A stretch of 64,000 nt of DNA from Stutzerimonas nosocomialis (lineage in GTDB: Bacteria > Pseudomonadota > Gammaproteobacteria > Pseudomonadales > Pseudomonadaceae), in assembly GCF_005876855.1 (NCBI RefSeq), contig NZ_QLAE01000001.1, forward strand, positions 186,001 to 250,000. The letters run 5' to 3'. The notes under the pieces are model-generated. The model was not told the DNA's origin. It saw only the letters and a program-made list of their open reading frames with translations, and searched no databases. Of this stretch, positions 14,967-26,805 are shown piece after piece. The translations under genes were made by a program, and so were the position numbers. The stretch's first letter is position 1; the number at the start of each line of letters is the position of its first letter.

Positions 14967-14990
14967 GCCTGCGCGCGGTTACGCGTGACT

Positions 14991-15057
14991 ATGGCAAAAG
15001 GCTTACACGCCGTCGCGACGTTCTGCGCTTTTTCGGACCCGTGCGGCTCCCTAAGAT
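14991..15057 (+). promoter_or_regulatory. upstream control region of the first RsmX-like RNA
   Basis: A 22-base block starting at 14991 recurs upstream of the second RNA. It contains CTTACA at 15002-15007, the right half of the GacA box (TGTAAG-N6-CTTACA). The left half is not recognisable. A -10-like TAAGAT lies at 15052-15057, exactly 50 bases after the start of CTTACA, and no good -35 is present, as expected for an activator-dependent promoter. Confidence 0.6.
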
Positions 15058-15063
15058 AGGCCC

Positions 15064-15172
15064 ATCTCTGACGCACAGGACGTGCTCGGGATCATGGATG
15101 ATCGACCACCGCCAGGATGGCGCTCCAATGATTTGGACATGGTCAGGAAAAACCCGCTTCGGCGGGTTTTTT
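15064..15172 (+). ncRNA. RsmX/RsmY/RsmZ-type RsmA-sponge RNA, copy A
   Basis: This RNA of roughly 109 bases has GGA motifs presented in hairpin loops: GCAC-AGGAC-GTGC, GATC-ATGGAT-GATC and CGCC-AGGAT-GGCG, with a linear TCAGGA before the terminator. This is the architecture of the GacA-controlled RNAs that titrate RsmA/CsrA. A fourth stem, CCAA/TTGG, has lost GGA from its loop. The terminator AAAACCCGC-TTCG-GCGGGTTTTTT ends it. The 5' end is estimated from the -10 element. A similar RNA lies 611 bases downstream. Confidence 0.82.
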
Positions 15173-15209
15173 GCTTTCCGGCCCCGGACGAACCGGCGCC
15201 ATCGGGCCC

Positions 15210-15515
15210 TCAGTCGCGGGTGCCGGTGATCTGCACCAGGGTGCCGTCGATGAAGCGCAGGTAGCGCGTCATGCCGTTGCGCGGGCCGTAGGCCCAGCGC
15301 TCCACCGTGACCGAACCTTCAGGCGGCAGGCCGTTTTCCTGCAGGGTGGGCACGCTTCGTTCGCGCGCATCCGGCTCCCCGCATTTGCGCAGCACCTCCA
15401 GGCTGTTGTCGCCCTCGTTGATCAGGCCCCCGTTGCAACGCATCGACGCGAGCGCGGTGCTGCTCGTTGCCAGCAGCAGAACGGTCAGCAGGCCTTGGCA
15501 GATCGGCTTGAACAT
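15210..15515 (-). CDS. DUF2845 small secreted protein
   Basis: The 101-residue protein has a signal peptide (MFKPICQGLLTVLLLATSSTALA) with probable cleavage before SMRCNGG. The mature domain follows the DUF2845 pattern: C-x-G-x-L-I near the start, then VLRKCGEPDARE and a C-terminal strand RYLRFIDGTLVQI. Two cysteines may form a disulfide in the periplasm. The function is unknown. It lies alone on the minus strand between two homologous small RNAs on the plus strand, so RNA copy A is transcribed towards its 3' end. Confidence 0.8.
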   Translation of the reverse strand: MFKPICQGLLTVLLLATSSTALASMRCNGGLINEGDNSLEVLRKCGEPDARERSVPTLQENGLPPEGSVTVERWAYGPRNGMTRYLRFIDGTLVQITGTRD

Positions 15516-15601
15516 ACAGAACTCCCGAATGATCGCTCCCGCATCCTAGCCCGACGGCAGGGCTGGGTGAACCGTCGGGCGGGCAGCGTCTCCATGGGCG
15601 A

Positions 15602-15668
15602 ATGGCAAAAGGCTTACACGCCGCCGCGGCGTTCTGCGCTTTTGTCGCGGCGGGCTCGCCCCTAGGAT
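15602..15668 (+). promoter_or_regulatory. upstream control region of the second RsmX-like RNA
   Basis: The block at 15602-15623 is identical to that at 14991 and contains CTTACA at 15613-15618. The -10-like TAGGAT is at 15663-15668, again exactly 50 bases after the start of CTTACA. The fixed spacing argues that both copies answer to the same activator, presumably GacA. Confidence 0.6.
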
Positions 15669-15674
15669 AGCGCC

Positions 15675-15784
15675 ATCTCTGCAGCGCACGGATGCGCTCA
15701 GGATCAAGGATGATCGACCATGGCCAGGACGGCGTTCCAAAAGGATTTGGATGGTCAGGAAAAACCCGCTTCGGCGGGTTTTTT
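15675..15784 (+). ncRNA. RsmX/RsmY/RsmZ-type RsmA-sponge RNA, copy B
   Basis: This second copy is about 110 bases long. Its hairpins are AGCGCA-CGGA-TGCGCT, GATC-AAGGAT-GATC, GCC-AGGAC-GGC and CCAAA-AGGA-TTTGG. A linear TCAGGA and the same terminator as copy A follow. All four loops show GGA. Stem bases differ from copy A but pairing is kept (first hairpin), which supports a real folded RNA. It is expected to bind RsmA/CsrA dimers and free target mRNAs under Gac control. Confidence 0.84.
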
Positions 15785-26156: not shown

Positions 26157-26618
26157 TCAACGATGTTTCTTGTGCCACTCGTGCTTGTGGTGGCCCTTGC
26201 CCGGGTGCTTGCGGTGATGCTTGGCGTATCGCTTGTCGTGACGGTGCCTGTCGCTGTCGTCGTCGGCGCCGTAGGCATTGCCGAGCGCGCCGCCGGCGCC
26301 GCCACCCACCGCGGCGCCGATCAGCCCGCCGGTGCTGCCGCCGACCTGCTGGCCGATCACGTTGCCGCCCGCCGCGCCGAGACCGCCGCCGATCGCCGCT
26401 TCCGTACGGCTGCGCTTGTCGGCACCGACGGCGCTGCCGGCGGCGCCGCCGAGGCCCGCACCGATCGCCGCGCCGGTCGATCCGCCCAGGTGTTCGCCTA
26501 CCACTGTGCCCAGGGCGCCACCGAGGGCGCCGCCCACGCCGGCTTCGACCGAGCTGCCGGCCATGGCGCTGCTGGCGCAAAGGCCAAGGGACAACAGGAG
26601 CATCGAGGAATACTTCAT
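26157..26618 (-). CDS. glycine-zipper protein with His/Lys-rich tail
   Basis: The 153-residue protein has a signal peptide (MKYSSMLLLSLGLCASSAMA). About 90 residues of glycine-zipper repeats follow (GGALGGALGTVVGEHLGGS and similar), broken once by a charged segment (ADKRSRTE). The last 30 residues are almost entirely His, Lys and Arg (KHHRKHPGKGHHKHEWHKKHR). Glycine zippers pack into membranes or oligomers, and the tail could bind metal, LPS or nucleic acid. No specific function is known. Confidence 0.8.
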   Translation of the reverse strand: MKYSSMLLLSLGLCASSAMAGSSVEAGVGGALGGALGTVVGEHLGGSTGAAIGAGLGGAAGSAVGADKRSRTEAAIGGGLGAAGGNVIGQQVGGSTGGLIGAAVGGGAGGALGNAYGADDDSDRHRHDKRYAKHHRKHPGKGHHKHEWHKKHR

Positions 26619-26805
26619 AGGGGCTGCGCCTCCACGGGATGACGGCGCGATCCTCGCTTCGCTTGCAGGGCCGGCGCAAGCGATTTCGGCGGGGCGGTGT
26701 GAATCACCGCACGTTCGCTAAGTTTTTGTTTTTTCAGGGGGAACCAGCAGCGAAACGGCGGGTCCGATGCCGCTTCGGAGGGCGAAAGCTGCTGGCTGCG
26801 AGGTT

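Follow-up and report, generated by a model that had tools for sequence, protein, structure and literature searches.

Two tandem rsmX genes around a DUF2845 gene in Stutzerimonas: an ordinary pair with a slightly unusual history

The number of Rsm RNAs varies across pseudomonads (PMC7366521), and tandem rsmX genes are already in print for P. brassicacearum, F113, P. stutzeri and P. syringae (PMC7911923, Table 1). The rsmX-1/rsmX-2 pair of P. brassicacearum NFM421 has been tested by experiment: expression of both genes is reported to be exclusively GacA-dependent, and overexpression of rsmX-2 overrides a gacA mutation (PMC7911923). Its RNAs of about 110 nt are 75% alike and are preceded by near-identical GacA sites. 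The pair described here shares this tandem arrangement but is known from sequence, and species and spacing differ. The P. stutzeri pair rsmX-1/rsmX-2, entered in PMC7911923 under 'A150', which we read as A1501, belongs to the same RNA family and is also tandem, with RNAs of 109 and 107 nt; by the coordinates in that table its starts lie 239 bases apart, whereas ours are separated by 611 bases and enclose a DUF2845 gene. A tandem pair, rsmX-3/rsmX-4, is likewise listed for P. syringae (PMC7911923, Table 1, citing Moll et al. 2010), whose genomes are given five rsmX genes in the same source, against two in the genome studied here. The rsmX, rsmY and rsmZ genes are also spoken of in A1501 (PMC12459779). 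We found no paper on rsmX copies under the genus name Stutzerimonas, the P. stutzeri pair being in print under the older name. P. stutzeri belongs to the same genus as our organism, now called Stutzerimonas. Tandem rsmX having been published, our pair adds no new kind of system.

The window, by which we mean the whole stretch of 64,000 nucleotides that was analysed, carries two plus-strand units that match the Rfam rsmX model (RF02144) over positions 1-114 of 114 (Table 1). Copy 1 scores 80.4 bits (E 3.3e-13) and copy 2 79.3 bits (E 6.1e-13), for a curated cut-off of 56 bits, and the model matched none of 14 control genomes. Identity as RsmY was rejected, since both units reach only about 42 bits against the RsmY cut-off of 57; identity as RsmZ was rejected as well, the single match of the RsmZ model sitting elsewhere in the genome. 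Local alignment of the two stretches gave a score of 125.5, while 500 dinucleotide-preserving shuffles of one stretch gave at most 26.0. A preliminary description of this DNA had proposed two plus-strand units 611 bases apart with the layout of RsmX/Y/Z sponge RNAs, to be checked with the three Rfam models. Strand and distance are confirmed by the match starts, and the sponge layout is supported and can be narrowed to RsmX, as both copies exceed the cut-off and partner genes are present in the genome. As to identity and general mechanism, the pair almost certainly consists of two tandem rsmX genes, which would work as GacA-controlled RsmA sponges. The pair is real and ordinary, with a small evolutionary peculiarity.

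Table 1. Features of the tandem rsmX locus (positions within the window)
Feature	Position	Strand	Remarks
GacA-type upstream site, copy 1 (TATGGCAAAAGGCTTACA)	14990..15007	+	15/18 letters match published site
-10-like element, copy 1	15052..15057	+	read from sequence
rsmX copy 1	15063..15172	+	110 nt by Rfam match; 6 GGA motifs; predicted fold -44.5 kcal/mol
Intrinsic terminator, copy 1	15147..15172	+	stem-loop and T run in fold and Rfam alignment
DUF2845 protein gene, between copies	15210..15515	-	101 aa; Pfam PF11006 58.8 bits, cut-off 21
GacA-type upstream site, copy 2 (AATGGCAAAAGGCTTACA)	15601..15618	+	14/18 letters match published site
-10-like element, copy 2	15663..15668	+	read from sequence
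rsmX copy 2	15674..15784	+	111 nt by Rfam match; 7 GGA motifs; predicted fold -46.4 kcal/mol
Intrinsic terminator, copy 2	15759..15784	+	in fold and Rfam alignment

The partners of the Gac-Rsm system were found in the same genome. It has one RsmY above the cut-off (100.4 bits, cut-off 57) and one RsmZ (80.4 bits, cut-off 44); a third rsmX match, below the cut-off (31.7 bits, C9), overlaps the RsmY gene. A GacA-family regulator is encoded directly upstream of uvrC (317.9 bits, cut-off 280). Two CsrA-family proteins are present: a typical CsrA/RsmA protein (119.8 bits, cut-off 73), and a protein of 67 residues (L101:1124-1327, minus strand) whose two solved matches are named RsmF and RsmN. RsmN has been described from P. 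aeruginosa (PMC3791407).

A putative GacA upstream activating site precedes both promoters, as judged by comparison with the published site TATAGCGAAACGCTTACA (PMC7911923, section 3.1). From the start of CTTACA to the start of the -10-like element we counted 50 bases in both copies (15002 to 15052 and 15613 to 15663), in agreement with the equal spacing first described. The control blocks had been called identical; the block bearing CTTACA is indeed common to both units, but it is near-identical, with 2 of 42 bases differing between 14991-15032 and 15602-15643. A pattern built from both blocks and allowing up to 3 mismatches found exactly these two places in the window and none in 100 shuffles. 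CTTACA alone was dropped as evidence, its frequency being no different from chance (4 found in the window, 4.35 expected). At 80 of the 81 rsmX places examined, it stands 58-62 bases ahead of the start of the Rfam match, the distance being 61 in both window copies.

Both RNAs are predicted to fold into a chain of hairpins closed by a strong terminator, and the two terminators agree in stem, loop and T run, as originally noted. Partition-function calculations left three of the six GGA motifs of copy 1 and four of the seven of copy 2 mostly unpaired (probability at least 0.64), the remaining ones being mostly paired, so that both copies are predicted to expose several GGAs in hairpin loops, as is expected of RsmX. 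The series of GGA-bearing loops is thus largely retained, except that the fourth hairpin loop, which has one GGA in copy 2, has none in the predicted fold of copy 1. The first hairpin had been said to differ in bases while keeping its pairing. This holds on both sides of the stem for one pair, where copy 1 has A-U and copy 2 has G-C, whereas another pair, U-G in copy 1 and U-A in copy 2, changed on one side only. Taken alone, a single compensated pair is weak evidence. Over 65 distinct RNAs (an alignment that omits the second-contig copy of G020 and the row of G034), standard pairing is kept at each of 30 predicted pairs in 60 to 65 sequences, and most pairs vary little.

Following the general mechanism, phosphorylated GacA would act at the upstream site of each copy, and RNA polymerase would start about 60 bases downstream of CTTACA to yield an RNA of about 110 nt ending at its own terminator. 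The GGA motifs in the hairpin loops would then bind RsmA, and perhaps also the RsmN-like protein, thereby removing RsmA from its target mRNAs. The two near-identical promoters should give a higher dose of RsmX under one signal, and dosage control by paired copies is a reasonable inference. The basis of this scheme is the sequence family, the predicted folds, the layout of the sites and the presence of genes for GacA, RsmA, RsmY and RsmZ; from it we infer that both genes are transcribed in dependence on GacA, that the RNAs bind RsmA and that two copies raise the dose. In P. stutzeri A1501, joint mutation of rsmY and rsmZ is reported to have the same effect on biofilm as a gacA mutation, and the authors deduce that biofilm formation in this strain involves no additional Rsm RNAs (PMC8249394). 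Since the double mutant matches the gacA mutant in this respect, rsmX may matter little for biofilm.

In Stutzerimonas, rsmX is usually found in tandem. A search of the genus gave matches above the rsmX cut-off in 46 of 56 genomes. Loci were retrieved for 48 genomes (49 loci in all), including two genomes with matches just below the Rfam cut-off (G034 and G044 among the 81 units). Two or three same-strand copies lying within 3 kb of each other were present at 30 of these loci, in 30 of the 56 genomes. Because contigs sometimes stop next to the gene (for example in G019), the single-copy counts are upper estimates. Ten genomes, seven without a match and three below the cut-off, were searched again with looser filters, and none of them gave a match above the rsmX cut-off; contig breaks or filter losses may explain the genomes that lack one. 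At the level of the family, matches above the cut-off occur in 199 of 398 genomes, with close pairs present among the matches listed.

Two side observations concern the arrangement of copies elsewhere. In G012, three rsmX copies follow each other at steps of 227 and 228 bases (L050:3040-3603); copies 1 and 3 have nearly the same RNA with different promoters, and copies 2 and 3 share a promoter, a pattern that suggests conversion. Searching plasmids for rsmX returned two places in one record, NZ_CP044084.1 of Pseudomonas luteola (586 kb, typed non-mobilizable). The better of these (L115:2577-2689) was rejected as RsmX, being instead RsmY (67.6 bits, cut-off 57), and it sits among the conjugative-transfer genes traC, traA and traV.

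The chromosomal surroundings are shared: at 46 of the 49 loci we matched at least one expected neighbour within the fetched stretch, namely an NTT-like transporter or hpf-like gene upstream, or a LysR or HCDH gene downstream. Copy 2 of the window is separated from LysR by an efflux transporter and a TetR gene, an arrangement shared among the 49 loci by that of S. azotifigens only. The preliminary description was correct that the pair surrounds one gene. This gene is divergent from copy 2 and is a neighbour rather than a part of the RNAs, but its presence there is atypical: DUF2845 lies between the copies at 2 of the 30 tandem loci, those of the window and of S. azotifigens, while a cold-shock gene is found at 22 and neither gene at 6. 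Its product had one relative in the scan of genome contigs, 91% identical, in Stutzerimonas azotifigens 115A1. At the 22 loci the cold-shock (CSD) gene runs antisense between the rsmX copies (for example L044 and L061). Elsewhere in the window, the plus-strand stretch 26518-26751 matched P34, an Rfam family of Pseudomonas sRNAs (53.8 bits, cut-off 44).

The source bacterium is a close relative of S. azotifigens, with HCDH genes 93% alike. An HCDH tree of 28 genomes with a match of at least 380 residues, out of the 48 for which an rsmX locus had been retrieved, was poorly resolved and was kept only for the sister pair formed by these two genomes. The window pair had initially been ascribed to recent duplication, and our data do not support this. 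A very recent local event would account for the near-identity of the 42-base promoter blocks and for the grouping of all four copies, two of the window and two of S. azotifigens, in a tree of promoters only (99/94). However, each copy is closer to its S. azotifigens counterpart (92% and 94% alike) than to its own neighbour. In a tree of 81 units, whose rows comprise 78 bases upstream plus the RNA, the four copies fall into a single clade (97/94), within which the two first copies are joined (99/94) and so are the two second copies (100/99); the pair thus predates the separation of these two bacteria. Among 32 comparisons of neighbouring copies at 30 loci, the window pair ranks second for the 25 bases after CTTACA (92% alike, median 56) and first, tied, for the terminator (97%), but 31st for the RNA bodies (81%, median 88). 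The best tree of RNA bodies alone also leaves the four copies ungrouped, although their grouping is not rejected (p-AU 0.165). A very recent duplication is highly improbable. The diverged RNA bodies, like the missing GGA in the fourth loop of copy 1, could also be taken as signs of a decaying or silent duplicate, with the other copy alone functional. This is unlikely, as both copies have full-length Rfam matches with similar scores, each retains its upstream site, the -10 spacing, its terminator and no fewer than three exposed GGAs, and both are also present in S. azotifigens.

The pair shared with S. azotifigens is probably a separate duplication, its main rival being promoter conversion in an older pair. 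According to this rival, the window holds the X1/X2 pair widespread in the genus, whose promoter blocks were later made alike by gene conversion. The neighbourhood is the same as that of other tandem pairs, and the promoter and RNA halves of the units give differing histories. In the promoters-only tree, all other second copies need no label change beyond two. The AU test gives no clear rejection of a single clade of all second copies, whether run on promoter plus RNA (p 0.0503, or 0.102 once G029 and G012 are excluded) or only on promoters (0.17); run on RNA bodies alone, it rejects that clade (0.005). Three long-branch rows were dropped from these trees (the middle copy of G022, the second-contig copy of G020, and G034). 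One clade of all first copies is rejected as well (p 3.7e-05), a result of little weight because the test shuts out several single-copy rows that the tree places among the first copies. The single clade of the four copies in the whole-unit tree and the different intervening gene also speak against conversion, which we regard as a serious but rather doubtful explanation. The AU tests favour an independent origin rather than establish it. A fuller reading, put forward tentatively and with a little less than even confidence, is that the S. azotifigens lineage duplicated rsmX independently of the common X1-cspA-X2 pair and around a different gene, and that conversion or selection has preserved the likeness of its two GacA promoters as the RNA bodies drifted. 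Recent duplication and conversion can each hold alongside the identity of the units as tandem rsmX genes.

The window pair is a further Stutzerimonas example of the known variability in rsmX copy number. If the S. azotifigens lineage did duplicate rsmX independently, the copy number of sponge RNAs would be a repeatedly tuned trait at one chromosomal neighbourhood. There is a gap in print at this point: the biofilm study of A1501 used RsmY and RsmZ (PMC8249394), yet PMC7911923 lists tandem rsmX genes for P. stutzeri. Work on the Gac-Rsm system in Stutzerimonas should take in rsmX.
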